DNA of 64,000 nucleotides from Caulobacter sp. FWC26 (GTDB taxonomy: Bacteria > Pseudomonadota > Alphaproteobacteria > Caulobacterales > Caulobacteraceae), in NCBI RefSeq assembly GCF_002742645.2, contig NZ_CP033875.1, positions 2,520,001-2,584,000 of the forward strand. Reading direction: 5' to 3'. The position numbers and the translations under genes are program-made. Positions 1 through 25,290 of the stretch are shown piece after piece. The notes below the pieces were generated by a model that ran no database searches, was not told the origin of the DNA, and worked only from the letters and a program-made list of their open reading frames with translations. The first letter of the stretch is position 1; each line of letters opens with the position of its first letter.

Positions 1-2265
1 GCGCAGTTCGAGACGGCCTATGCGCGATGGTGGGCCGCAGGGCGCATCGACGGCGACGACCGCCTGCGTTTCTTCACCGCGCGCGAAGAGGAAGATCGCA
101 TCGCCGACTTCCGCGCCGTGGACGATCGCGTGGCCGACCTGACGGTTGCCTATATCCGCGCGAAGATCTCGGGCCAGATCCCGGACCGCAACACCGTCGC
201 CAAGACATCCGGCTTTGGCGCGCTGCGCCATCAACTGGGCCTGCAAAAGCCCCGCAAGCCCGTGCGCGCCCTGATGAGCGAGATGGGATCAGACATCACT
301 ACGCTGGCGCCCTGCATGTTGATGAGCCCGCTTTCGGTGGCCCAGTATCTGCCGGCGGATGGCGCGCTGTTTGACCTGGTGATCTTCGACGAGGCCAGCC
401 AGATCACCACCTGGGACGCCATCGGCAGCCTGGCGCGAGGCCGCCAGGTGGTGATCGCTGGCGATCCGCGTCAAATGCCGCCGACCAACTTTTTCCAGCG
501 CGGCGCGGGCGCGCCGGCCGAAGACGAGATCGACGACAGCGTCGAGGAGGATCTGGAAAGCATCCTGGACGAATGTCTCTCGGCGGGTCTGCCCCGTCAC
601 ACCCTGGAGTGGCACTATCGCTCGCGCCACGAAAGCCTCATCGCCTTCTCCAACCATCGCTACTACGAAAGCCGCCTGGTCACCTTCCCGTCGGCAGTGA
701 CCCAGGACACCATGGTCAGCCTGCGGCGGGTCAGCGGGGCCTACGCCAAGGGCAAGTCCCGCACCAACGCCTCCGAAGCCCAGGCGATGGTGGAGGAGGC
801 CGTCCGGCGCCTGCGCGATCCGACCTTCGGCGGTCGCGGCAAATCACTGGCCATCGTAACCCTCAATTCCGAGCAGCAACGGCTGATCGAAGATCTGCTC
901 GACAAGGAGCGCGCCAAATATCCCGCTTTGGAGCGGTTCTTCGGCGATCACTGCCTCGAGCCCGTCGTGGTCAAGAACCTGGAAACCGTCCAGGGCGATG
1001 AGCGCGACCTGATCCTCCTAGGCGTTGGCTATGGGCCCGAGACGCCGGACGCCCCCACCATGAGCATGAACTTTGGCCCGCTGAACCGCTCCGGCGGCTG
1101 GCGGCGGTTGAATGTGGCGGTAACCCGGGCGCGCGAGGAGATGATCCTCTTCGCCTCGTTCGGTCCGGAGATGGTCGACCTCAACCGGACCTCGGCCGAC
1201 GCGGTGCGCGACCTCAAGCATCTCTTGGAATACGCGCAAAAAGGTCCACGGGCCTTGGCCGAGGCGATCCAGGGCTCGGTCGGAGGCTATGAATCGCCGT
1301 TCGAGGAAGCCGTAGCCCGAGGCCTGCGCGAACGGGGCTGGACGGTCATCCCCCAGATCGGCGTCTCGCGTTTCCGGATTGACCTGGGCGTGGTGCATCC
1401 CGACAAGCCCGGCGCGTATCTGGCCGGGGTGGAGTGCGACGGCGCGGCCTATCATAGCGCGGCCACCGCGCGCGATCGCGACAAGGTTCGCGCGGGAATT
1501 CTGAAGGGCCTGGGATGGGAGCTGGAACGCGTCTGGTCGACGGCCTGGTGGCACAATCGCCAACAGGCGCTCGACCTTCTCCACACCGCTTTGACCGGCT
1601 TACTGGAGGCCGACCGGACCCGCGTCACCGAAGACGCTCCGGTCGGTCTGCCAGAACCGGAGACGACGGCCGAAACGCCCTTGGCTCTATCCAGCTCAAC
1701 CGAACGCGTCGCTCAATTCGCGCGCGCCGTGGCCTTCCCGGATTTGAAGGCGACTTCGCCCAGCCAAGACGGCTTCTATCGCGTGGTCGATCTGTCCGAC
1801 GAACCCGACCTCGATCCGGCCGCGTTCCATGAGCCGATTTATACCTCGACGATCGAGCGACTGGCCCGCCGGGTGGTCCAAGACGAAGGACCGTTGCGGA
1901 TGGACGCCGTGGTCAGCCGCATCGCGCGAGCCCACGGGTTCAAGCAATCAGGCCGCCTGATCCGAGAACGGGTGGAATTGGTCGCCAAAGCCCTGTTTCC
2001 AGCTGTCCCGGACCCAGATGGCCTGGTGTTCGTCTGGCCCGACTGGGCCACGGTGGAAACCTGGTCTCGCGCCCGCGTGCCGGCGAGCGAAGCCGATATC
2101 CGCTTCATCGACGACATCCCTCACGCCGAGCTGTCGACCTTGGCGCGACGGGTCTCTGCCGCCGATCCCGTGGTTGAAATTGCCCGTCAGTTCGGAATTC
2201 GGCGAGTGTCGGCCGCAGCGCGAGCCCGCATCGAGGCGGCAGTTGCTTCGAGCGTGGACCCATGA
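1..2265 (+). CDS. SF1 helicase with PD-(D/E)XK and DUF3320 domains (5' partial)
   Basis: The frame is open from base 1, so this is the C-terminal 754 residues of a larger protein; the N-terminal helicase part with Walker A lies outside the window. Visible helicase motifs are a DEASQ Walker B at about residue 130, GDPRQMPP at 154, an ETVQGDERD motif near 328 and NVAVTRARE (motif VI) near 371, all typical of DUF4011/AAA_11-AAA_12 helicases. Residues about 433-517 form a Vsr/MTES_1575-like nuclease fold, with conserved FEE, RIDLGVV and VECDGAAYH. Residues about 615-680 resemble DUF3320. The stop overlaps the next ATG (ATGA), so it is coupled to an SbcD-like and an SbcC-like gene. Family members are large DNA helicase-nucleases often found near defence genes. 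A role in DNA processing or phage defence is inferred. Confidence 0.85.
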   Translation, partial: AQFETAYARWWAAGRIDGDDRLRFFTAREEEDRIADFRAVDDRVADLTVAYIRAKISGQIPDRNTVAKTSGFGALRHQLGLQKPRKPVRALMSEMGSDITTLAPCMLMSPLSVAQYLPADGALFDLVIFDEASQITTWDAIGSLARGRQVVIAGDPRQMPPTNFFQRGAGAPAEDEIDDSVEEDLESILDECLSAGLPRHTLEWHYRSRHESLIAFSNHRYYESRLVTFPSAVTQDTMVSLRRVSGAYAKGKSRTNASEAQAMVEEAVRRLRDPTFGGRGKSLAIVTLNSEQQRLIEDLLDKERAKYPALERFFGDHCLEPVVVKNLETVQGDERDLILLGVGYGPETPDAPTMSMNFGPLNRSGGWRRLNVAVTRAREEMILFASFGPEMVDLNRTSADAVRDLKHLLEYAQKGPRALAEAIQGSVGGYESPFEEAVARGLRERGWTVIPQIGVSRFRIDLGVVHPDKPGAYLAGVECDGAAYHSAATARDRDKVRAGILKGLGWELERVWSTAWWHNRQQALDLLHTALTGLLEADRTRVTEDAPVGLPEPETTAETPLALSSSTERVAQFARAVAFPDLKATSPSQDGFYRVVDLSDEPDLDPAAFHEPIYTSTIERLARRVVQDEGPLRMDAVVSRIARAHGFKQSGRLIRERVELVAKALFPAVPDPDGLVFVWPDWATVETWSRARVPASEADIRFIDDIPHAELSTLARRVSAADPVVEIARQFGIRRVSAAARARIEAAVASSVDP

Positions 2266-3389
2266 TCCGGTTCATCCACACCGCCGACTGGCAGCTGGGC
2301 AAGCCCTTCGGGCGCATGCCGGATGACGTGCGAACCGTCCTGCAAGAGGCCCGTCTCGACGTCATTGACGCCATCTCCAAACTCGCCGCCGACAAGGGCG
2401 CCGATGATGTCTTGGTCGCCGGCGACGTCTTCGACGCACCCGAACCTGGCGAGAGGGTTGTCCGACAAGCCCTCGCCCGGATGCAACGCGCGCAGTGTCG
2501 TTGGTGGCTCTTACCAGGCAATCACGACTACGCCCGTGCCGAGGGGCTATGGGCGAGGTTGTCTCGTGACGCTCCCGCCAATGTCAGAGTCCTGGCCGAA
2601 GCCCTACCCGTCACCCTGAGTGAGCGCGCGGTCATCTTGCCGGCGCCACTGCTCTATCGGCGCACACCCGACGATCCCACGGCTGTTTTTGAAAGTATGA
2701 CCACGCCCGCCGGCGTGCACCGGATCGGCCTGGCGCATGGGCCCATCCAGTCGTTCTCCAGCACCGCGGCGATGAACCTGATCCTTGCAGATCGCGCCCA
2801 GCGTTCGGGTCTGGACTATCTGGCCTTGGGCGACTGGCACGGCTTTACCCAAATCGGCGAGCGCACGGCCTATAGCGGCACGCCGGAGGCCGACGACTTC
2901 GATCGCCCGGTAACCGGCGGAGCGGTGCTGGTGGAGATCGCCGCACCCGGTGCCGTCCCAGCGCTCTCTCATCATCCGTTGGGCCGCTTCACCTGGCGAA
3001 ACGAGGCCTGGCCAATCGATGGGGTTTCAGGGCTGGAAGCCAAGCTGCGCCGCCTGCGCGCGGAAGCTGACCTATCGCGCCTCGTGCTGCGGCTGAAGGT
3101 CTCGGGCATCGTCAGCTTGGCCGATCGGGTCACGATGCGCGAACGGCTGGAGTCGGAGCTCGGCCTGGAGACCCGTTGGCTTGATCTCGACTTGCAGGAT
3201 CTTTTTGCAAAGCCAACGGCAGACGACCTTGGCGATATCGATGCCCACGGCGTCCTGCGAGTCGCCGCCGAACGCTTGCTGGCTATGGCCAAGGGTTCCG
3301 GCCCCGAGGCGCAGCTGGCGGGCGCGGCGCTAGAGCGCCTGTTCGTCGAGAACCTGCGAGCCGCGCGCACCGTTGAGGCCGACGCATGA
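2262..3389 (+). CDS. SbcD/Mre11-like DNA exonuclease subunit
   Basis: 375 residues; the start ATG overlaps the upstream stop by 4 nt. Calcineurin-like metallophosphoesterase motifs are visible: TADWQLGKPF at residues 7-16, GDVFD near 51, GNHDY near 86, LAHGPI near 159 and GDWHGF near 190. The first motif has Gln where classical SbcD/Mre11 has the His of DWH, a variant I believe occurs in YhaO-like relatives. Such proteins pair with an SMC-like ATPase to cut DNA ends; the partner follows immediately, again with an ATGA overlap. The operon with a helicase-nuclease points to accessory DNA repair or defence and not to the housekeeping sbcCD locus, but the function is inferred. Confidence 0.88.
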   Translation: MIRFIHTADWQLGKPFGRMPDDVRTVLQEARLDVIDAISKLAADKGADDVLVAGDVFDAPEPGERVVRQALARMQRAQCRWWLLPGNHDYARAEGLWARLSRDAPANVRVLAEALPVTLSERAVILPAPLLYRRTPDDPTAVFESMTTPAGVHRIGLAHGPIQSFSSTAAMNLILADRAQRSGLDYLALGDWHGFTQIGERTAYSGTPEADDFDRPVTGGAVLVEIAAPGAVPALSHHPLGRFTWRNEAWPIDGVSGLEAKLRRLRAEADLSRLVLRLKVSGIVSLADRVTMRERLESELGLETRWLDLDLQDLFAKPTADDLGDIDAHGVLRVAAERLLAMAKGSGPEAQLAGAALERLFVENLRAARTVEADA

Positions 3390-6055
3390 GGATCCGCAGC
3401 CTGGCCCTGGAAAACTTCCGCCGCTTTCGTGCTCCAGTGCGCATCGAGGGTTTGAGCGATGGCCTCAATCTCATCAGCGAGCCCAACGAGACCGGCAAGT
3501 CGACCATCCTTGAGGCAATGCGCGCGGCGCTGTTCGAGCGGCATGGATCTGCCGGGGCGTTCATAAAGTCGCTCCGCCCCTGGGGCGATGAGACCGCACC
3601 GACCGTCGAGCTCTGCTTCGAACTGGAAGAGTCGGCTTGGACCGTGTCCAAGCGCTTCCTGCAAAAACCCCAGGTCACGCTGACCGGCCCGGGCGGCCAG
3701 ATCTTCACCAGCGACGCGGCCGAGGAGAAGCTCCAGGCCTTGCTGGGGTTCGAACGATCGAGCAATCGCGGCGCTGACGACGAGAGCCGAGGGGTCCTGG
3801 GCCTGCTGTGGGTCGAGCAGGGCAAGGCCCTGTCTCTGGACGCCCCTGGCCGCATCGCTCGGGAAACAATCCAGTCGGTTCTCGCAGGCGAAGTCGGCGC
3901 CGTCACTGGTGGCAAGCGCGCGGTCACCGTCACCGCTGCGGTCGAGACGGCGCTAGCAGACTTTCGCACCGCCAAGGCGGGCCAAGCGACAGGGAAGTTG
4001 CTTGCGGCTCAGCAGCAGTTGAGCCTGGCGCAGGCCCGACGAGCCGAGGCCAACGCGGCCATGGACCATTTCGGCGGCGTACTCGATCGTCTCGCTGCGG
4101 CGCGCGCTGAGCTCGATCGCACCGAAAGGTTCGCCGAAGACCCGCAGCAAACCGAAGAGGTCAAGGCCTGGACGCGTGACCTTGAGATCGCCCGGGCGGC
4201 TGAAGGCCGGCGCCGGGAAGCCCAAGCGCGCTTGGGCGAGGCTCAGAGCCGTCGCCAACAGGTGGAAGACCGCGCCCAGAGTCGGGAGAATCTCAAAGCC
4301 GAGTTGGCGGCGGCGACGCGCAATAGCGCTGAGGCCGAAGCGTCATTGGCGCAATTTGAGCCCCTCCTCGCCGCTGCCCTCAAGGCCGAAGACGACAGGG
4401 CGGGCGATCTGAAAGTGGCCAGAGCCGAGCTGGAGGGAGCCGAGCGCGTCGCCGCCGAAGCGGTGACAGCTGAGCGCGCGATTTCGCGAACCAGGCATCT
4501 GGCGGCCGCCTTCGCGCGCCTGGACGCCGCGGAGCATTTGTCGCTGGAGATCGGAGCGCTGAACCAAAACATCGCCCGCGCACCAGTAACCGATCCCATC
4601 CTGGAGTCTCTGCTCGCGCTGCAGGCCAAAGTCTCCCAGACGCAAACTGCGCTTGAGGCGGGGGCGCCAACCCTTGAGGTGAAGCTCGAGCCCGGCGGCG
4701 TCGGCAAGGCGCGCCTCAACGGGAAGACGGCAGTCGATGGACGTCATCTCATCGTCGAACCCGCAGTTTTGGAGATCGCCCAAACCGGCACCTTCACGCT
4801 CGTGCCGGCTTCCGCGTTGGCCGCGCAGGCGGATCATCGCCGTGCGGTCGAGGATCTCACCGAGGCCTTGGCCAGGATCGAGTTACCCAGTCTGGACGCT
4901 GCGCGCGCCGCGGCCGAGACACGTCGCGGCCTGGTCGAGCGCCTCAACACGCTTGAAATTCGGCTGGAAACCTACTGCATGGCGGACGAGGCCCTGAACT
5001 TGGCGGCGGGACTGGAGGTATTGCGGGGTGCCCTCAGCGGCGCTGAGCGCCCGCCCACCCCTGTGGGTCCCAGCGTCGACCTCCAAGCCGAGACCGAAAA
5101 GGCTGAACAGGCTGTCTTGCGAGCTAGAATGGCCGAGCGCGCGGCGGCCGAGGCGCGGGACACGGCCGGTGAAGCGCTGAAGCGTTGCGAGCTTCAAGGC
5201 CAAGCCCTGAGCGCGACGAGCCGGGGCCTGAAATCACGCCTTGAGCAGCTCTACTCGACCCTCGACGCCCTGAACGCTGCCCAGTCCGACGACGCGCTCG
5301 ACATCGAGCTTCGCGACGCACGCCAGGCCGAAGCGCGCTGTTCGGCCGAGTTCGGAGACGCGCAAGCCGCGGCGCTGGCCTTCAACATCGAAGATTTGGA
5401 GCGCAAACTTGCCAACGCCGAAACCCGCCGCCGAAACCTCGAGGCCGAGCGTGTTCGCTTGGCCGGTGAGATCGGCGGTCTCAGTGAGGCGGCACGGTCG
5501 GAGGGCGAGCGGGGGCCGGCCGCTGAACTTGATGCCGCCCGAGAAGCGGAAGACGGCGCCGCGAACCACCTTGCATTGATCACCCAGCAGGCCGACGTCC
5601 TCAGCCTTTTGAAAACCGTCCTCGCTGAGGCCAGTCGGGAGGCCACGCACCAGTATCTCGGCCCGGTCACGCAGCGGGTAACACCCTATATTGACCGCCT
5701 GCTCCCTGGCGCGACTTTGGAGATGTCGGACGCTATGGCCGCTGGATCGGTCAGCCGTCTAGGCCGCCTGGAGCCCGCTGAGGATCTCAGCCGCGGGACC
5801 CAGGAGCAGTTGGCGGTATTAACGCGGATCGCCTTCGCCGACCTACTTCTCGAAAAGGGCCGTCCGGTCTCTCTCGTACTCGACGACGCGCTGGTCTATT
5901 CCGACGATGGGCGACTGGAAACCATGACCGATATCCTGAGCGAAGTGGCTGAACGCATGCAGGTGATCATCCTCACCTGCCGCAAGCGCGCCTTCATGCA
6001 TTTGGAAGCGAACCGCGTATCATTGATCGAGGTCGATTTGTCAGCGCGGCGCTGA
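3386..6055 (+). CDS. SbcC/YhaN-like SMC-type ATPase
   Basis: 889 residues. The N-terminal ATPase half has a Walker A-like SEPNETGKST near residues 31-40 and the LGLLWVEQGKAL segment characteristic of YhaN-like proteins. The middle (about 200-750) is rich in Ala, Glu, Arg and Leu heptads, as expected for long coiled coils around a hinge. The C-terminal half carries the ABC signature LSRGTQEQLAVL and Walker B SLVLDDALVYSDD. It is expected to form a DNA-end-processing complex with the preceding SbcD-like nuclease. The start overlaps that gene's stop (ATGA). It ends the three-gene operon; the next ORF starts 184 nt downstream. Confidence 0.88.
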   Translation: MRIRSLALENFRRFRAPVRIEGLSDGLNLISEPNETGKSTILEAMRAALFERHGSAGAFIKSLRPWGDETAPTVELCFELEESAWTVSKRFLQKPQVTLTGPGGQIFTSDAAEEKLQALLGFERSSNRGADDESRGVLGLLWVEQGKALSLDAPGRIARETIQSVLAGEVGAVTGGKRAVTVTAAVETALADFRTAKAGQATGKLLAAQQQLSLAQARRAEANAAMDHFGGVLDRLAAARAELDRTERFAEDPQQTEEVKAWTRDLEIARAAEGRRREAQARLGEAQSRRQQVEDRAQSRENLKAELAAATRNSAEAEASLAQFEPLLAAALKAEDDRAGDLKVARAELEGAERVAAEAVTAERAISRTRHLAAAFARLDAAEHLSLEIGALNQNIARAPVTDPILESLLALQAKVSQTQTALEAGAPTLEVKLEPGGVGKARLNGKTAVDGRHLIVEPAVLEIAQTGTFTLVPASALAAQADHRRAVEDLTEALARIELPSLDAARAAAETRRGLVERLNTLEIRLETYCMADEALNLAAGLEVLRGALSGAERPPTPVGPSVDLQAETEKAEQAVLRARMAERAAAEARDTAGEALKRCELQGQALSATSRGLKSRLEQLYSTLDALNAAQSDDALDIELRDARQAEARCSAEFGDAQAAALAFNIEDLERKLANAETRRRNLEAERVRLAGEIGGLSEAARSEGERGPAAELDAAREAEDGAANHLALITQQADVLSLLKTVLAEASREATHQYLGPVTQRVTPYIDRLLPGATLEMSDAMAAGSVSRLGRLEPAEDLSRGTQEQLAVLTRIAFADLLLEKGRPVSLVLDDALVYSDDGRLETMTDILSEVAERMQVIILTCRKRAFMHLEANRVSLIEVDLSARR

Positions 6056-6239
6056 GATCGAAAAGTTTAGGCGAGCGAGGATGGAGGAGACACACCACCT
6101 CCCTCCCAGCGAAGCCTATGTTCCGAGCAACCGACTGCTGATGGAGGCCTCTTGACGGCCTTTCTTCGGCGATCGGTGATTGGAAAGTGGTTTGGATCGC
6201 TCAATCGCGAATATCAGGTTTGCGAAAAGAGGATGGACC
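6056..6239. other. Spacer between the two left-end operons
   Basis: About 180 nt without a convincing gene. A purine-rich stretch just after the SbcC-like stop contains GGATGGAGGAGACA but no good ORF follows it. A TTG-started extension of the next gene (from 6180) is possible but less likely than the GTG at 6240. No clear terminator hairpin was seen; the promoter of the Cap4/HerA-like pair presumably lies here. Confidence 0.4.
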
Positions 6240-7430
6240 GTGGCGAGGACTGCCGAATATTCAATCAAGGGCTATCTATACCAGTTCCTCCGCTATCTGT
6301 CGGAGATCCTGGCGGCGGGGCCGGGCACCAAGGTCACGATCGAGGGCGCGATCGAAGATATCGATGTCGCAGCGCCAGGGTTCACGACCGCGGTACAATG
6401 CAAATATCACGAGGCGGTCGATACATTCTCGCTGAGCAAGATCTACAAGCCGGTGCTGCTGATGCTCGAGCATTTTTCGCACAACAGCAGCACAACGCCA
6501 GAGATCTATTATAGGCTCTTCTGTCATTTCCCCGACCAGGGCGGCGCGCGTCGGCTCAGCAAGAACGAGCTCAACTCGGTGCTCGCCACCAAATCCGACG
6601 CGTTGCAGAAGATCATCAAACGCATCGCGCCCGGCGTCGATCATGACCTCTTCCTGACGCGTTTCACGATCGAATTTGGCCAGACCAGCGACGACTTGCA
6701 GAAGTCGGTGCTCGCAACCCTCGGAACCAAAGGTTTCTCAGCGGAGGATGTCGACGCGATCATCTTCCCAAATGCGATCCAGCGGATCGTCGATACCGCC
6801 ACCCAATCCGCGCTTCCCGACCGGACGGTCGATCCCGCCACGTTCCTTGAAGCGCTGCGCGATGTCCGCCGCGTGACCTTCACCCGCTGGACCCGGGCGC
6901 TTGCGTCGCGCGCGCAGATCGCCAAGCGGCTCCGCGGAGACCTTGCCCCGTCGCTCGCTCACAATATCCGCCGCCGAACCTTCGTCATCGACCCGGCCAT
7001 GATCGAGAAGTTCGACGATACGATCGTCGGTTTCATGAAGGCATTTGCCGACCGCTACTGCTGCAAATATCTCCATGAATATCCGCCGCTATTCCTGATC
7101 ACGGGTGATTACGATGTGGATGCCCTGGCGACCCGGCTCCACGACGCTGGCCTCACCGCCGCGACTGGGATGGTTGGAAACGCGTTTCGTGCCAACGCTC
7201 TGTTCAAGAAGCCGATGCGCCGCAAAACGCCGCTCGCGATCGAGTTTCGTCTTGGCCTTGCGCGCCGGTCAGTCGTCACCGAAGAGCCGCCCGAACGACC
7301 CGACGAGCTGTTCCTTGTGAACGTCGCCGACGATGCGTGGGCGAAAAAAGACGTCACCGTCCACCGCTTCGAGATCGAACGCCTGTCCGATCTCGAATAC
7401 GTGCTCAAGCTGAGGAATGTATATGATTGA
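6240..7430 (+). CDS. Cap4/DUF4297-like dsDNA nuclease, partner of HerA
   Basis: 396 residues from a GTG start, chosen because AAGAGGA lies 6 nt upstream; a TTG at 6180 would add 20 residues. The N-terminus matches the Cap4/DUF4297 endonuclease pattern: GYLYQFLRYL, then VTIEGAIEDIDV and AVQCKYHE. Together these give the E...D...QxK residues of a PD-(D/E)XK site within the first 65 residues. The remaining 330 residues are not recognised and may bind the partner. The 3' end overlaps the HerA-like gene. Known DUF4297-HerA pairs are two-gene antiphage systems in which a HerA hexamer assembles with the nuclease; this pair has that logic. The family assignment is by motif only. Confidence 0.68.
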   Translation: MARTAEYSIKGYLYQFLRYLSEILAAGPGTKVTIEGAIEDIDVAAPGFTTAVQCKYHEAVDTFSLSKIYKPVLLMLEHFSHNSSTTPEIYYRLFCHFPDQGGARRLSKNELNSVLATKSDALQKIIKRIAPGVDHDLFLTRFTIEFGQTSDDLQKSVLATLGTKGFSAEDVDAIIFPNAIQRIVDTATQSALPDRTVDPATFLEALRDVRRVTFTRWTRALASRAQIAKRLRGDLAPSLAHNIRRRTFVIDPAMIEKFDDTIVGFMKAFADRYCCKYLHEYPPLFLITGDYDVDALATRLHDAGLTAATGMVGNAFRANALFKKPMRRKTPLAIEFRLGLARRSVVTEEPPERPDELFLVNVADDAWAKKDVTVHRFEIERLSDLEYVLKLRNVYD

Positions 7431-9255
7431 TCTTGGTGATCCGATCGGCTGCGTCACTGATAGCTCGCCTTCGCTGGTGCGGATCGAAGTCAGCAACGCC
7501 GAGGCTTTCGACAGGCACAAGGCGAAGCTCGGCGTTGGGCAATATCTGCTTATCGCGTCGGGCAACGATCTCTATCTGCTTGCGACCATCACGGCGGTCC
7601 GTGCCTCACACATCGATCGCGCGAGACCCGACAGCGGTGACGCTGGCACCGGCGAGGCGGACTCGGTCTCATTCCGCTTCCAAATCGACACCCAGCCGAT
7701 CGGCACGCTCTCAGAGGACACCGACTTCACGCGCGGCACGCCCGCGCTCCCAGTGCCCACTGAATACGCCTATGTCACCCCACCCGAGGTGCTAAGCGCT
7801 ATCTTCTCGAAGCAGATCAAGTCGCCCTTCTTGCTCGGGACGTTGAGCGTCGCGCCCGACGTCAAGTTCGAGGTCGATGGCGACCGCTTTTTCAGCAAGC
7901 ATGTCGCGGTAGTGGGCTCAACCGGTTCGGGCAAGTCCTGCGCGGTCGCCAAGATCCTGCAGACCGTGGTTGGCATCGAGGTTAAGACTAATGCCAACAA
8001 GGCCACGCAGAAGAACGCGCACATCGTGATTTTCGATATTCACGCCGAATATGCGGCGGCCTTTCGGCTGGCCGAGACCGAAAATTTCACGCTCAACCTG
8101 CTCGACGTCGATACGTTGAAACTACCCTATTGGCTGATGAACGCCCAAGAACTCGAGGAAATGTTCATCGAGAGCCACGAGATCAATTCGCACAACCAGG
8201 TCTCGCAGTTCCGCCATGCTGTCGTGCGCAACAAGTGCCGACACAATACGGGCCTCGACAACATCTCATTCGACACGCCGGTCTATTTCTCGATCGACGA
8301 AGTGGTGACCTATCTTGAGAATATGAATGTCGAAGTGATCGGAAAGCTCAGCGGCGAGGGGAAGCCCAAGCTCGCCGACGAGACCTTGGTCGCGGATCGG
8401 GACAGCTGCTATTTCGACAAGCTGCAATCGTTCGTGGTTGCGTCGACCGCCGCCGCGACCAAGGCGAGTAATGGGCCCTTTCACGGCGAGTTCGATCGGC
8501 TGATTCTTCGCCTGCGCACCCGGCTCGCTGATCCGCGCCTGCGATTCCTCTTTTATCCGGTGAAAGACGGCGGGATACCGCTCGAGACCGGTGACTTCGC
8601 CGATGTCGTCCGGCAGTTCATCGGGTATCTCACCAGATCCAATGTCTCGATCGTCGACCTGAGTGGCATTCCGTTCGAGGTGCTGAGCATCGTCATCAGC
8701 CTGATCTCGCGGATGATCTTCGACTTCGGCTTCCATTATTCGAAAACTCGCCACGTTGGCGGCAATGTCAGCGACGTGCCTATCATGGTGGTGTGCGAGG
8801 AAGCACACAATTACGTGCCCCGGTCTGGTGGCGCGCAATATGATGCCTCGCGCAAGTCGATCGAACGGATCGCCAAGGAAGGGCGCAAATATGGCGTGAC
8901 GTTGATGGTCGTGAGCCAGCGCCCGTCCGAGGTCTCTGAGACCATCTTCTCGCAATGCTCGAATTTCATCTCCCTCAGGCTCACCAACGCGGTCGACCAG
9001 AGTTACATCAAGTCGCTGCTTCCCGATCTGTCCGCCGGGATTGGCGACCTGCTTCCCAACCTCGGTCAGGGCGAATTCCTCACCGTGGGCGACGCGCCGC
9101 TGATGCCGACCGTTGGCCGTTTCGCGCTCCCAGTGCCGGAGCCGCATTCGCGCAGCGTCAATTATCTCCAAGAATGGAAAGCCGACTGGCGCGAGGTCAA
9201 TTTCGATGACGTGATTGAGCGCTGGCGCGGCAAGGTAGTCGCCGCAACCGCTTGA
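7423..9255 (+). CDS. HerA-type hexameric ATPase/translocase
   Basis: About 610 residues. An ATG at 7417 is also possible, but TGAGGA at 7411-7416 spaces better to 7423. It overlaps the nuclease gene by 8 nt. Motifs: Walker A VVGSTGSGKSCAV near residue 165, IFDIHAEY near 203 (the DxHxE signature of HerA/DUF87 proteins), Walker B VVCEEAHNYVP near 455, followed by SERP-like ISRL segments (RLTNAVDQSYIKSLLPD). The N-terminal ~140 residues resemble a HAS-barrel. HerA normally works with NurA in DNA end resection; here it is paired with a Cap4-like nuclease, as in antiphage DUF4297-HerA systems. The defence role is inferred. Confidence 0.85.
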   Translation: MIDLGDPIGCVTDSSPSLVRIEVSNAEAFDRHKAKLGVGQYLLIASGNDLYLLATITAVRASHIDRARPDSGDAGTGEADSVSFRFQIDTQPIGTLSEDTDFTRGTPALPVPTEYAYVTPPEVLSAIFSKQIKSPFLLGTLSVAPDVKFEVDGDRFFSKHVAVVGSTGSGKSCAVAKILQTVVGIEVKTNANKATQKNAHIVIFDIHAEYAAAFRLAETENFTLNLLDVDTLKLPYWLMNAQELEEMFIESHEINSHNQVSQFRHAVVRNKCRHNTGLDNISFDTPVYFSIDEVVTYLENMNVEVIGKLSGEGKPKLADETLVADRDSCYFDKLQSFVVASTAAATKASNGPFHGEFDRLILRLRTRLADPRLRFLFYPVKDGGIPLETGDFADVVRQFIGYLTRSNVSIVDLSGIPFEVLSIVISLISRMIFDFGFHYSKTRHVGGNVSDVPIMVVCEEAHNYVPRSGGAQYDASRKSIERIAKEGRKYGVTLMVVSQRPSEVSETIFSQCSNFISLRLTNAVDQSYIKSLLPDLSAGIGDLLPNLGQGEFLTVGDAPLMPTVGRFALPVPEPHSRSVNYLQEWKADWREVNFDDVIERWRGKVVAATA

Positions 9256-9591
9256 GACCCAAGGCGAGTAGCCCGTTCCGTTACCCGCCTCTGATCAGCC
9301 GGGGTCCGGTCCGGTTACCGGCCCGAACTTAGCGGCTTCCGATAAGTGGCCCTTTCGAAGCGCGCTATGAGTCAGGTCTACCCGTTTCCAGGACCGACCT
9401 CGCCAGCGCGTCGCCCGCTGCCAGGAAGCCGACCTTCCCAACTTCTCCGATGAGTCAAAACAGGACTTGGCTTGCTGCCTGGTACGCATCCGGTGAGAAC
9501 CGCGGTGGCCTAGGTCCGATTAGCGGACGTCATCAAGTTCCGGGCGGGGTGGGAAGCGGTCATCCGGGCTTAAAGAGCCATGTTGGCTAGG
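9256..9591. other. Gene-free spacer between convergent HerA and receptor genes
   Basis: About 335 nt between two convergent stops. I see no ORF with coding character, tRNA or array. A short palindrome, CCGGTTACCGG at 9311-9321, is the only obvious symmetry and has no T-tract. Base composition is slightly more even than in the neighbouring receptor gene. Confidence 0.4.
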
Positions 9592-11721
9592 TCAGCCGCC
9601 ATAGTCGAAGTTGGACGGCTTCTTAAGCTTGCCACCGAAGGCGTAGCTTAGCCCCAGCGTGAATCGGCGCGAATTGCTGTCGTACTCCACGCTCTGCCTC
9701 AAGCCAGGCTGCGTAACGTATTCGCGTGCCTGGCTGCTGTTGAGCACATCGCGCGCGGTGGCGACCAGCGACAGGCGCTCGTCGATCTTGTGGCGAAAGC
9801 CCAGGTTCAGCGTGCTGTAGGCCGGGGCATAGCCTTGCGGCGTCAGGCGCTTTGCGTGGAGCTGGGCATTCAGCTGGAAGAGATCGGCGGGGGTGATCTG
9901 GCAGTTCAGCGAACCCTTGCCGCCTACCAACAGCGCCGAACGGGTCTTCGCGCCGGTCAAGCCCTCGGCTTCGATCTCGGAATAGGTCGCCGTCGTGCTG
10001 GCTGTATAAGTCAGCTTCGAGGTCAGTCGTCCCCCCGCCGACAGCTCCAGACCGACGTTCCGCTTAAGGCCCAGGTTCTGCCTGGTCGACAGCAAGGTCC
10101 CGCCTTCCAACGGCGTGACAATGTCGGTGACCGTGTCGCGGATGTCCCGGTAGAACACTGTCGCCAGGCGATAGGCCGGGCCGTCGCGATACTCGTATGA
10201 AGTCTCGATGCCACGGGTTTCCTCCGGTTTCAGGGCCGGGTTGCCGGCCGTGACCGTCAGCGCGCCGGCGGTGTTGGGGAAAGGGTTCAGATCATCGGGA
10301 TCGGGCCGCTCGATGCGTTGCGTGTAAGACCCCTTCAGCTGGCGGTGATCGTCGAGGGCGTAGCTGAGGTGCAGTGACGGAAAGGCGCGAGTGTCGGTGT
10401 CGCGATGCGTTCCGCCCAAAGTCAGCTGCTCGGTCTTGATGCGCGCGCTCTCGACGCGCAGTCCCATCAGCGCGGTCAGCTTGCCGAACGGCCGCTCCAG
10501 CGTCGCATAGGCCGCCGAGACCACCTGGCCGTAGTGGAAACGGTTCGTCAGGCTGGGGTCCGGTCGGGCCGTCGCCGCGTCGCCTCCGCGCGCGCCGCTG
10601 TTCTCATAGAGATAGCCGTCGTCCTCGACCTGGACGCCAGCCGTCAACTTGGTGTCCTTCGGCAAGGGTTTGCGGTAGTCGGCGGAAAGCCGTGTCAGGG
10701 TCTGGTGCTGGTCGAAGTCTCTGGCCTGATATGCGCCCGATGCCGGTGCGCCGCCTAGGTAGGCGTAGGGCTGACGGTCCTTGTTGATTGTCGCGCTGTG
10801 ATCAAGGTCCAGCGTCAGGTCGTGATCCTCGCCGGCGAACTTGCGCACCAGCTGAGTCTCGACCTCGTCGTCATAGACCCGATAGGTCTTGCGGCCGACG
10901 CGGGTGGACGAGGTCTCGCGCCCCGGGGAGCGGATATCGAAGGCGTCTGCCTCATGGGTGACCCAGTCGAGCCGAAGGTGGTGGGCGTCGGCGGAAAGCT
11001 GGGTGCGCTCGCCGGCCTCGTATTCGGCCGACAGATGGAGGTTGCCGAAATAGGCGGATGTACGCCCCTGGTAGACGCCGTCGCTCTCGACATCGCCAGA
11101 CAGTTCGCGGTGCTCGCGAGTCCTTTTCTTGAGAATGTTTCGCCGGACGGAAAGGTCACCGTTCAGCGACAGCTTGCCGGAATTGTAGCCCAGGTTCCCA
11201 GCGCCGTTCGCCAGACCCTGGTCGCCGACATTGGCCTGCAGCGCGCCGGTGATCCCCGCGCCCTTGGCCTTCTTACTGATCAGGTTGATGACCCCGCCCG
11301 AGCCGTTGGCGTCGAAGGCGGCCGATGGGTTGGTGATGATCTCCACCCGCGCGTACCGGTCGGCGGGCAGCTGTTGCAGGGCGGCGGCGCGACCCGCGCC
11401 CTTGAACAGGCCCGAGGGCTTGCCATCGACCAGGATGGTGACGTTGGGGTCGCCGCGCAGCGAGAGCTTCCCCTCAGGATCGACCTCGACCGACGGCAGA
11501 TTGCCCAGCGCATCGCCAATCGAACCCGCCTTGGCCTGCAGGTCGTCGGAAAGGCTGTAGCTCCGACGATCGATCCGGGTCTGCACACCCGCTTGCGAGG
11601 GCGCGGAGATGACGACTCCGTCGATCTTGTTGGCCGGCGCAGGCGGCGTGGGGACTTGGGCTAGAACGGGCTGGGCGGCAAAAACAACGGCGAGGCCCGA
11701 CTGGCCAAGCAAAACTCTCAT
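9592..11721 (-). CDS. TonB-dependent outer-membrane receptor (OMP_b-brl_3 type)
   Basis: 709 residues with an N-terminal signal peptide (cleavage after about AQPVLAQ). A plug domain at about 50-180 contains NLPSVEVDPEGKLSLRGD and VLVDGKPSGLF-like segments, then VEIITNPSAAFDANGSGGVI. This pattern is typical of the outer-membrane beta-barrel family 3 receptors. The rest is a predicted 22-strand barrel; the protein does not end in a canonical aromatic residue. It is clearly paralogous to the frameshifted receptor at 23147-25290, with matching plug motifs and barrel segments. Substrate unknown. It stands alone, downstream of an IS66 remnant and convergent with the HerA operon. Confidence 0.85.
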   Translation of the reverse strand: MRVLLGQSGLAVVFAAQPVLAQVPTPPAPANKIDGVVISAPSQAGVQTRIDRRSYSLSDDLQAKAGSIGDALGNLPSVEVDPEGKLSLRGDPNVTILVDGKPSGLFKGAGRAAALQQLPADRYARVEIITNPSAAFDANGSGGVINLISKKAKGAGITGALQANVGDQGLANGAGNLGYNSGKLSLNGDLSVRRNILKKRTREHRELSGDVESDGVYQGRTSAYFGNLHLSAEYEAGERTQLSADAHHLRLDWVTHEADAFDIRSPGRETSSTRVGRKTYRVYDDEVETQLVRKFAGEDHDLTLDLDHSATINKDRQPYAYLGGAPASGAYQARDFDQHQTLTRLSADYRKPLPKDTKLTAGVQVEDDGYLYENSGARGGDAATARPDPSLTNRFHYGQVVSAAYATLERPFGKLTALMGLRVESARIKTEQLTLGGTHRDTDTRAFPSLHLSYALDDHRQLKGSYTQRIERPDPDDLNPFPNTAGALTVTAGNPALKPEETRGIETSYEYRDGPAYRLATVFYRDIRDTVTDIVTPLEGGTLLSTRQNLGLKRNVGLELSAGGRLTSKLTYTASTTATYSEIEAEGLTGAKTRSALLVGGKGSLNCQITPADLFQLNAQLHAKRLTPQGYAPAYSTLNLGFRHKIDERLSLVATARDVLNSSQAREYVTQPGLRQSVEYDSNSRRFTLGLSYAFGGKLKKPSNFDYGG

Positions 11722-23146: not shown

Positions 23147-25290
23147 ATGCGCAAGACTCTGATGGCGGCCCTGGCGGCCAGCGGCGCCCCCGGCGCGATC
23201 GCCCTGGCCCAGCAGACAGTTCCTGCGCCCACGGCGGTCGAGGGCGTGGTGATCACCGCCCAGAAGCCGGCGCAAGCAACCTCCATCGACCGGCGGACCT
23301 ATTCGGTCGCCCATGACCTGCAGGCCAGCGCCGGCTCGGTCGGCGACGTGTTGCGCAACCTGCCCTCCGTCGAGGTCGACGTGCTGGGCAACCTCTCCCT
23401 GCGCGGCGACAGCAACGTTCAGGTGCTGATCGACGGCAAGCCCTCGACCATGATGTCGGCGGCCAATCGCGGGGCCATCCTGCAGCAGATGCCAGCCGAC
23501 AGCATCGAGTCGATCGAGGTGATCACCAACCCCTCGGCCCAGTTCAAGCCGGACGGCGCGTCGGGCATCATCAACATCGTCACCAAGAAAAATCGCCGTC
23601 CTGGGCGCTCTGGTACGGCGCAGGCGAGCCTGGGCACGGAAGGTCGCTACAATCTCGGCGCCACCGCCGCCTACAAGTCTGGGGCCCTCAACCTCTTCGG
23701 CTCGGCCTCACTGCGCCACGAGACCCGCAAGCGCACCACCACTGACCACCGCGTGCGCCGCGACGCCGTCGCCGGCGGCGCGGCCGCCAGCGACCAGACG
23801 GTGGTCAGCGACCAGCAGCGCGATTCCAAGATCGTCTCGGCCGGCTTCGACTACGATCTCGACGCCAAGAGCCGGATCAGCGGCTCGGCAAGCTACAACC
23901 GGCGCGCTGAAACCCTGACGATCGGCGAACGCAATCGGGCGGCGGATCCCGGCGGGACGGTGCTGAAGGACTACGACCGGCAGGGCCAGGGACGCGGCCA
24001 CGAGACCAGCACCCAGCTCTCCGCCGGCTATCGCCGCACCCTGGCGAACGACGGCGAGTTCACGCTCGACCTGCAGCGCGGCGAGACCAAGGAAGACCGC
24101 CGCCGCACCTATCTCAGCCGCTTCCGCGCGCCCCCCGCGGCAGATCTTCGCGAAGAGTTGATCCCGCGCGCCGACGAGATCACCACCGAACTGTCGGCCG
24201 AGTATTCGGGCGCCCTCCCCGGTAGGGCCAAGCTGAAGCTCGGCTATGATTTGCAGCGCGACAACGACGACTACGACAACTACGGCGGAACGATCGTCGG
24301 CGCCCTGCATGTCGTCGATCCGTCCCAAACCAACCGCTTCCTCTACAAGCGCACCGTCCACGCTCTCTACGGGACCTATGAGCGACCTCTGGGCGACTGG
24401 ACGCTGCTGGCAGGCCTTCGGCTAGAAGAGACGCTGATCGACACCAACCAGCTGCGAGCGCCTTGCAGAACAGCACCGACTACTTCCGCGCCTATCCTAC
24501 CCTGCACCTGGAGAAGGACCTGGGCGAGGATCGCAAGCTTCGCCTCAGCTATAGCAAGCGCGTGGCCCGTCCCGAGCCCGAGGATCTCAATCCCTACTTC
24601 GTGGTCATCGACGCCTTCAGCGCCCGGGCCGGCAATCCCAACCTGATGCCCCAGGAGACCCATGCGTTCGAAATCGGCTACGAGACCCGGACGCACGGCG
24701 CGACCTTGGCGGCGACGGCCTATGCTCGCCGTAGCCTGAACGGCATGACCGACGTCAGCCGCTACATCAGCCCGACCGTTTTGCTGACCACCAAGGAGAA
24801 CCTGGGCAAGGCCACATCGGGCGGCGTGGAGCTGTCGGCCAGCGGCAAGATCGCCAGCGCCGTGAGCTACAACCTCAGCACCAACGTCTTCTACAATCAG
24901 ATCGACGCGGCCAACCTGGGGTTTGCCGCAAAGCGCTCGGCCATCGGCTATACCGGCAAGGCCAGCCTCGACTACGCCGCCACGGCCAAGGACTTCTTCC
25001 AGGTCAGCGCCAGCTACAGCGGCAAGCGCCTGACCGCTCAGGGCCGCCGCCTGCCCAGCAGCAGCGTCAATCTCGGCTATCGGCGCAAGCTGACGAGCGA
25101 TCTGTCGGCCGTGGTCACGGTCTCAGACCTCCTTAACCGGCAGCGCGACCGCACGGTGATCGACACCCCTACCCTTTCCGACCAGTTCGAGCGCCGCCAG
25201 CTAGGTCGCACGGCCTTCGTCAGCCTGTCGTGGAAGTTCGGGGCCGGCGGCAAGGCCAAGGATCCTGGCTTCGACTACGGCGCGCCTTAG
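23147..25290 (+). pseudogene. TonB-dependent receptor (OMP_b-brl_3 type), frameshifted
   Basis: Starts at the ATG of a signal peptide (MRKTLMAALAASGAPGAIA). Plug motifs NLPSVEVDVLGNLSLRGD and VLIDGKPSTMM are intact and parallel the receptor at 9592-11721. The barrel reading frame breaks at about 24455-24470: frame A reads to TLIDTNQLRA, then the homologous continuation LQNSTDYFRAYPTLHL is one frame over and runs to the stop at 25290. The paralogue aligns across this point without a break. A single missing base explains it; either a recent pseudogene or a sequencing error. The divergent location with PepSY and the shared operators suggest it belonged to the metal regulon. Confidence 0.85.

Follow-up and report, generated by a model that had tools for sequence, protein, structure and literature searches.

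A ProA-family gene joined to an Mre11–Rad50-like gene pair as a candidate antiphage operon in Caulobacter sp. FWC26

A 64-kb stretch of the Caulobacter sp. FWC26 genome (contig NZ_CP033875.1, region 2520001-2584000; hereafter the window, with negative coordinates lying upstream of it) opens with three co-directional genes on the + strand, which encode a member of the ProA family of antiphage proteins (gene 1), a predicted Mre11/SbcD-like nuclease (gene 2), and a Rad50/YhaN-like ATPase (gene 3). Gene 3 is succeeded, after 124 nt and in the same direction, by DUF4297-like and HerA-like genes. We propose, with a probability of about 0.55 and from comparative sequence analysis, that this locus is a horizontally carried antiphage operon composed of ProA and the Mre11–Rad50-like pair, with DUF4297–HerA as a further member that shares the pair. 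The proposal builds on gene order and overlaps, domain make-up, intact catalytic motifs in ProA, an accessory distribution, and recurrent joining of ProA and pair with swapping of partners. The features concerned are as follows.

1..2265, + strand: C-terminal 754 codons of proA (whole gene -3596..2265, 1953 aa), from the ProA NF058533 profile and Pfam domains
2262..3389, + strand: Mre11/SbcD-like metallophosphoesterase, 375 aa, short family, Gln-type motif I, GDWH, from the Metallophos match, a structure model, and alignment
3386..6055, + strand: Rad50/SbcC/YhaN-like ATP-binding cassette (ABC) ATPase, 889 aa, without zinc hook, from its AAA_27/AAA_23 heads
6180..7430, + strand: DUF4297 (Cap4-like) nuclease, 416 aa, HerA partner, PADLOC DUF4297 117 bits
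7417..9255, + strand: HerA-like hexameric ATPase, 612 aa, PADLOC HerA 525 bits

Recurrent joining and exchange of partners

To place the operon in the context of other ProA loci, we gathered ProA loci by ProA similarity alone and then searched them for pairs. Five loci found via the pair (L004, L066, L084, L009, and L126) are excluded from the rates and two whose contigs end at the gene (L094 and L096) from the ProA counts, whereas L164, truncated at its contig end short of the N-terminal domain, and L105, with one flank only, are counted; the second ProA of genome G427 and many ProA-family genes lacking the N-terminal domain lie outside the sample, and the plasmid loci represent 15 of 318 matching records. 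Among transglutaminase-type ProA loci in alphaproteobacterial genomes, four of 15 harbor a pair (L088, L089, L090, and L164; 3/14 without L164), where about 0.01 would be expected. This expectation derives from 40 SbcD-like matches in 230 genomes, which place such a match within a 14-kb flank in about 0.07% of loci, assuming genomes of 3.0 and 3.6 Mb on average; the corresponding P is about 3-6e-10 for 4/15 and about 1-2e-7 for three events. A further locus, L159, contains a 50-bit tblastn pair fragment not confirmed by profile search (a possible remnant). Alphaproteobacterial plasmid loci carry a pair or its remains in 10 of 12 cases, seven intact and three broken (L130, L167, and L170), and in L166 it is ProA itself that is broken. 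Pairs are found in one of 19 genome loci of other classes (L151, in the order pair–ProA), in none of three non-alphaproteobacterial plasmid loci, and in none of 20 loci whose ProA-family gene is without the N-terminal domain (L097-L101, L103, L104, and L106-L118, some on short contigs). Transglutaminase-type ProA differs from ProA lacking this domain with P=0.026 for genomes alone and 6e-5 with plasmids, and Alphaproteobacteria from other classes with P=0.10 and 3e-4, respectively; the plasmid-inclusive values are optimistic because some plasmid loci nearly duplicate one another and remnants enter the 14/27 figure.

The three-gene order of the window was looked for in other genomes and is found intact in L066, L088, L089, L169, and L173. 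The copies in L130, L167, and L170 are broken, and in L084 the pair is preceded by a C-terminal piece of ProA. The junction from ProA to gene 2 measures -4 to +13 nt in the window and in L088, L089, L167, L169, and L173. Three families of pair occur at ProA: a short family (about 375/880 aa), a YhaO/YhaN-like family (414-419/1156-1162 aa), and canonical SbcCD (about 380/1025 aa). An Mre11–Rad50 family different from that of the window adjoins ProA in L090, L129, L168, L171, and L172, and canonical SbcCD does so in L164 and L166, the SbcD of L166 scoring above its cut-off. The closest sampled ProA (L090) is 77% identical to that of the window, yet it is accompanied by a long pair across a gap of about 950 nt, with no overlap. 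In a quick tree of 56 ProA rows (three of them under half filled, and one long branch), 12/12 rows of one clade show a pair or what is left of one (eight short, four long), and the state "no pair" needs five changes, at least four of them forced by well-supported branches; in a quick tree of gene 2, with L151 on a long branch, ProA neighbors need six changes, at least five forced. Because both trees force several changes, ProA and the pair were most likely joined several times, with exchange of partners. Two Mesorhizobium plasmid loci (L168 and L172) encode, beside a YhaO/YhaN-like pair, an additional ATPase of the AAA family (about 880-900 aa); its gene lies immediately downstream of ProA, and the orientations are opposite. 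On a Thioclava plasmid (L131), a 381-aa metallophosphoesterase gene is divergent from ProA; its product gives no blastp alignment to the pair nucleases, and no ATPase partner is annotated.

Partners other than ProA also occur beside the pair. In 80/80 loci, gene 2 has a gene 3 match downstream, and 87 pairs could be placed of 96 loci tried (L017, L023, L040, L047, L050, L074, L075, L082, and L083 failed the spacing rule). A recognized defense gene adjoins 23 of the 87: ProA, a ProA fragment, or a ProA-like gene in four, DUF4297 in four (one shared with ProA), SIR2 in three, GajA/OLD-like genes in six, DruE/MkoA-like helicases in three, PDC-S06 in three, and type III restriction in one, with 14 of the 23 named by blastp cluster or tblastn and themselves unscanned. 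Nine of 10 scanned neighbor representatives, mostly of recurring clusters, match PADLOC at 1e-15 or better, versus one of 10 random leftover neighbors and none of 10 random genes; generic ATPase and helicase homology inflates these matches, and bit scores are therefore given.

DUF4297–HerA is the partner present in the window. The window DUF4297 scores 139.5 bits against NCBIfam DUF4297_antiphage (cut-off 300) and 36 bits against PADLOC LmuA, and the HerA scores 583.7 bits against HerA_antiphage_2 (cut-off 850), both under their NCBIfam cut-offs. The DUF4297 shares 65% identity with the product of the gene that follows a pair of this kind on a Sphingobium plasmid. Pair followed by DUF4297–HerA is found in L135, L189, L190, L052, and L192, the genes of the last being annotated with DUF4297/HerA names; in L043, pair and DUF4297 reach the contig end, and in L011, L012, and L016, the pair is followed by SIR2-type genes with HerA. 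The plasmids with this order come from Sphingobium RAC03, Sphingomonas panacis, Polymorphobacter, and also Burkholderia aenigmatica. On the first three, HerA is 84-86% identical to that of the window and the pair ATPases 39-49% (aligned parts); in S. panacis and Polymorphobacter, the gene between pair and HerA is annotated hypothetical. An Agrobacterium plasmid encodes an 80% identical HerA preceded by a hypothetical gene of DUF4297 size and no pair. HerA relatives occur on 84 plasmid records, of which five were opened. Since ProA–pair and pair–DUF4297–HerA each recur, the pair in the window is, by gene order, the common middle of two recurring units. An earlier sequence-only reading of this DNA had placed the three genes directly beside Cap4/HerA-like genes; these are present at 6180-7430 and 7417-9255, and the adjacency, real as it is, proves to be more than neighborhood. 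Known defense genes, near which the same reading had suggested testing for enrichment, do stand beside pairs, namely ProA, DUF4297–HerA, SIR2, Gabija-like, and type III restriction-like neighbors.

Two further arrangements were observed at pair loci. The conjugative plasmids of Sphingobium RAC03 and S. panacis (L135 and L189) carry a co-directional nine-gene run with AbiEi–AbiEii, the pair, a gene in the DUF4297 position, and HerA, which also includes a VWA protein, a PP2C phosphatase, and a C4 zinc-finger topoisomerase-like protein. In L035, L037, and L139 (chromosomes and a plasmid), the pair forms one run with genes for a RecB-like RNase H/helicase protein and a DruE-like DEAD helicase of 1713 aa; the PADLOC matches of the scanned helicases in L035 are partial.

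The three gene products

Genes 1 and 2 join in an ATGA overlap (gene 1 ends at 2265, gene 2 starts at 2262), as do genes 2 and 3 (3389 and 3386), confirming the 4-nt overlaps noted previously. Gene 1 is truncated by the window edge, and its longest reading spans -3596..2265 (1953 aa, GTG start). A simple scan of 1-9800 reveals nothing promoter-like, and terminator-like sites are not in excess (five versus 7.3 expected).

Whole gene 1 matches the NCBIfam model NF058533 ("anti-phage protein ProA") with 2157 bits over profile positions 2-1903; this exceeds the cut-off of 1500, and gene 1 is therefore, by profile score, a ProA family member and already named; the family name is the source of its putative antiphage activity. 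It scores 754.7 bits against Hhe (NF042953), under the cut-off of 2000, and 1155 bits against PADLOC PDC-S37 over residues 379-1949. Pfam identifies DUF4011 (157 bits), AAA_11/AAA_12, MTES_1575 (PF18741, a Vsr-type restriction endonuclease [REase]), and DUF3320, with no named domain at the N terminus; the DUF4011/DUF3320-type superfamily 1 (SF1) helicase with a nuclease domain of its own, as first read from the sequence, is thus recovered, the nuclease being of the Vsr type. We read C223, H249, and E285, each kept in 44 of 45 aligned ProA sequences, as a transglutaminase-like triad. Residues D1660 and E1677 are kept in 45/45 and 44/45 and the Walker A GK(S) in 45/45; taken together, the checked helicase and nuclease residues are kept in 42 to 45 of 45, similar-residue changes aside, and in this alignment the predicted helicase, Vsr-type nuclease, and transglutaminase-like motifs are intact. 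A HEPN RNase motif in DUF4011 was considered and rejected: the single RxxxxH-like stretch inspected in gene 1 (393-398) keeps its His in only six of 45 ProA sequences and is not conserved, so no HEPN domain is claimed. Going by its name, we suspect that ProA is the DefenseFinder system Prometheus, which is a guess and unproven.

Gene 2 matches Metallophos and scores 57.9 bits against SbcD (TIGR00619), under the cut-off of 77.65. Its AlphaFold model (mean predicted local distance difference test [pLDDT] of 84) finds Mre11/SbcD structures as the best PDB matches in Foldseek (E 5.8e-15, probability 1.00, template modeling [TM]-score about 0.5), and the modeled fold is that of Mre11/SbcD. Gln11 aligns to the motif-I His of SbcD (DWQ, not the canonical DxH) and Asp191 to the first His of GHxH (GDWH); both are invariant in 20/20 close homologs, and gene 2 keeps most of the metal ligands. 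Among 111 wider relatives, in part of which simple motif patterns failed to find the motif, His is back at motif I and GDWH is mostly kept. By alignment, the motif-I Gln is a subclade trait and the Asp a wider change. The Gln was rejected as a hallmark of the system, as ProA-partner nucleases in six loci (L066, L084, L088, L167, L169, and L170) have the motif-I His; the substitution remarked on in the sequence-only reading is thus real and at the SbcD His position, but it is not a key feature. A search of viral contigs with gene 2 returned 600 pattern matches, with no relative among them.

Gene 3 has the AAA_27/AAA_23 heads of a Rad50-type ABC ATPase of the YhaN branch, in keeping with the YhaN/SbcC-like ATPase previously assigned here. 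Its sequence contains no CxxC zinc hook, and its Walker B motif is Asp-Asp; canonical SbcC next to ProA elsewhere has a DE Walker B and a CPVC hook. Against PADLOC LmuB, it scores 29.9 bits over 50 residues.

Accessory distribution

No SbcD-like gene besides gene 2 was found in the source genome. The sequence-only reading had taken these genes being the only sbcCD homologs of the organism as evidence against a defense role, and for gene 2 this is literally the case; yet SbcD-like matches occur in just 36 of 230 alphaproteobacterial genomes (40 matches), so being the sole SbcD-like gene does not indicate a housekeeping role. Relatives of gene 2 and gene 3 are found in nine and eight of these 230 genomes, respectively, and those of gene 3 in five of 149 genomes of the bacterial family. 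For an empty-site comparison, we used as flank the right-hand TonB receptor gene, which has some match in 58/75 genomes (the upstream ion-channel gene matched only 8/75). In four same-genus genomes, matching DNA stops at window 9548-9596 with the TonB receptor kept, and the fetched flanks of this gene contain none of the five genes from proA to HerA, L188 covering only about 2.5 kb on that side. A housekeeping sbcCD locus is rejected on these data, with gene 3 relatives in only 5/149 genomes and the pair at 0/4 TonB-flank loci; as judged from these comparisons, the gene 2–gene 3 pair is rare and accessory. The proposal of a defense candidate beyond housekeeping sbcCD is thus upheld: the pair is rare, the TonB-gene flanks compared in four same-genus genomes lack it, and it has been joined time and again to known defense genes.

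IS21 transposase and helper ATPase genes lie upstream of the operon (window -9078..-6825), and IS21 genes are also close to ProA in L132, L167, L168, and L170. At 23204-25281, a TonB-dependent receptor homolog consists of two adjoining pieces in separate open frames (query residues 20-435 and 439-708), and this gene may be broken.

Proposed function and comparison with known systems

Known Mre11–Rad50 complexes recognize free, hairpin, and blocked DNA ends (available text of PMC10586767), and hairpin ends of phages are a target of SbcCD, whose action phage TelN counteracts (available text of PMC12624138). In our proposal, the Mre11–Rad50-like complex would load onto the ends of phage DNA that is invading or replicating, whether these are free, hairpin, or protein-blocked, and cut or open them, and the ProA helicase and Vsr-type nuclease would then unwind and degrade the DNA, with the transglutaminase/protease-like domain perhaps gating the attack; HerA–DUF4297 could use the same DNA entry. 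Here we infer phage DNA as the target, the recognition of ends, physical cooperation, the order of action, and a pair that serves both ProA and HerA. In bacteria without chromosomal SbcCD, the operon would supply its own, and a lone ProA is predicted to use host SbcCD. A repeatedly gained and distantly exchanged partner points to a needed activity, that is, DNA-end recognition or opening. More tentatively, and with considerable doubt, a mobile, exchangeable Mre11–Rad50-type end-processing complex may be a general accessory of unrelated DNA-targeting defense systems in SbcCD-lacking bacteria (ProA, DUF4297–HerA, SIR2–HerA, Gabija/OLD, and type III restriction), and ProA may need an Mre11–Rad50-type nuclease everywhere, taken from the chromosome of SbcCD-bearing hosts and supplied by the operon in others. 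If true, the Mre11–Rad50 repair complex would have become a plug-in module of immunity, as happened by a different route with Rad50-like Lamassu.

Several observations weigh against the proposed operon. Sixty-four of the 87 placed pairs have no recognized defense neighbor. Lone ProA is typical outside Alphaproteobacteria (18/19 genome loci and 3/3 plasmid loci), so ProA needs no adjacent pair, and 11 of 15 alphaproteobacterial genome loci lack an intact pair (one with a possible remnant). Nor does the link depend strictly on the transglutaminase-like domain: a pair stands directly before a ProA-family gene lacking this domain in L009 and about 12 kb from one in L126, both loci having been found via the pair. 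Lone ProA coincides with SbcD elsewhere in the genome in three of seven cases (P=0.08, seven genomes only). Finally, the altered metal ligands of gene 2 and Walker B of gene 3 could mean weak nuclease and ATPase activity.

Other roles for the pair are to be weighed against this proposal. It could be a self-protection or repair factor that mends or removes host DNA ends made by companion nucleases and has no part in attack, as its adjacency to many unrelated nuclease systems (Gabija-like, DUF4297–HerA, type III restriction, and ProA) and the absence of SbcD-like genes from most sampled Alphaproteobacteria (match in 36/230) would suggest; we consider this unlikely, given that the pair also adjoins SIR2-type genes and that matched co-expression with ProA is suggested by the ATGA overlap. 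SIR2 defense effectors deplete nicotinamide adenine dinucleotide rather than cutting DNA. An alarm of the Lamassu kind, in which odd DNA structures sensed by the Rad50-like pair would turn ProA or DUF4297–HerA into a self-killing effector, would fit the Rad50-related LmuB and the many LmuA with a Cap4 nuclease (available text of PMC10586767), the LmuA and LmuB matches of the window (36 and 30 bits), and the unusual Walker B of gene 3. The overlapping genes leave no room for LmuC, which is missing, gene 3 is far below a full LmuB match, and gene 2 keeps a predicted Mre11 fold and most metal ligands; this too appears improbable.

The pair might instead belong functionally to DUF4297–HerA only, with ProA upstream as a separate stacked system. 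Pair–DUF4297–HerA in L135, L189, L190, L192, and L052, three of them with an 84-86% identical HerA, speaks for this, but ProA–pair without HerA directly after it in L066, L088, L089, L169, and L173, and the two further pair families at ProA, render it quite unlikely. Very unlikely, in our estimate, is neutral stacking of independent defense systems in an island: the IS21 transposase genes at -9078..-6825, the lower GC content of the HerA part (59-60% versus 66%), and the 64/87 pairs without recognized defense neighbors are consistent with it, against ProA–gene 2 junctions of -4 to +13 nt in the window and five loci, partner swapping, and joining rates far above density.

Novelty is limited to the joined set, because the gene 1 family is named, its architecture was described in 2013 (PMC3710099, available text), and the set is without a model or a description found. 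What appears to be new is ProA joined with an Mre11–Rad50-like pair and this pair as a defense accessory; the earlier remark that no named system with this gene set was known is partly wrong, as gene 1 passes the ProA cut-off, but no name was found for the three-gene set. PADLOC 2.0.0 and NCBIfam 20.0 contain no defense model for the joined set or for the pair as accessory, apart from partial ATPase matches of low score (against LmuB, the canonical SbcC of L166 scores 71 bits). The open-licence literature searched, which lacks most subscription papers, yielded no description of the ProA–pair gene set and no mechanism for large ProA-type helicase-nuclease defense proteins; SbcC, SbcD, and Mre11 have zero occurrences in the main text of PMC12458937, PMC10853773, PMC12839542, and PMC11291478.

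The operon can be compared with several known systems. As in SbcCD/Mre11–Rad50 and Bacillus YhaO–YhaN, a nuclease–ATPase gene pair combines a predicted Mre11 fold with Rad50 ABC heads; it differs from SbcCD/Mre11–Rad50 in that gene 2 is under the SbcD cut-off, with Gln for the motif-I His and Asp for the first GHxH His, and gene 3 has no CxxC hook and an Asp-Asp Walker B. Gene 1 is above the curated ProA cut-off over its full length, but here an Mre11–Rad50-like pair overlaps it, a partner for which NCBIfam and PADLOC hold no defense model beyond the ATPase matches mentioned. The helicase-nuclease-DUF3320 part aligns with Hhe and PDC-S37, whereas the Hhe score is below cut-off and the PDC-S37 match omits the N-terminal transglutaminase-like part. 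With the giant HEPN-transglutaminase-SF1 helicase-Vsr-winged helix-turn-helix (wHTH) proteins (MTES_1575) described in 2013, gene 1 shares a transglutaminase-like peptidase, SF1 helicase, Vsr REase, and DUF3320/wHTH on one chain; those proteins have a HEPN domain, which is not claimed for gene 1, and no Mre11–Rad50 partner is mentioned for them in the available text of PMC3710099. Lamassu likewise couples a Rad50-like ATPase to a nuclease effector (available text of PMC10586767), but the window operon is without LmuC and has an Mre11-like subunit. Finally, window 6180-9255 has both genes of DUF4297–HerA in the order described in the available text of PMC11291478, but both are under their NCBIfam cut-offs and are preceded by an Mre11–Rad50-like pair.

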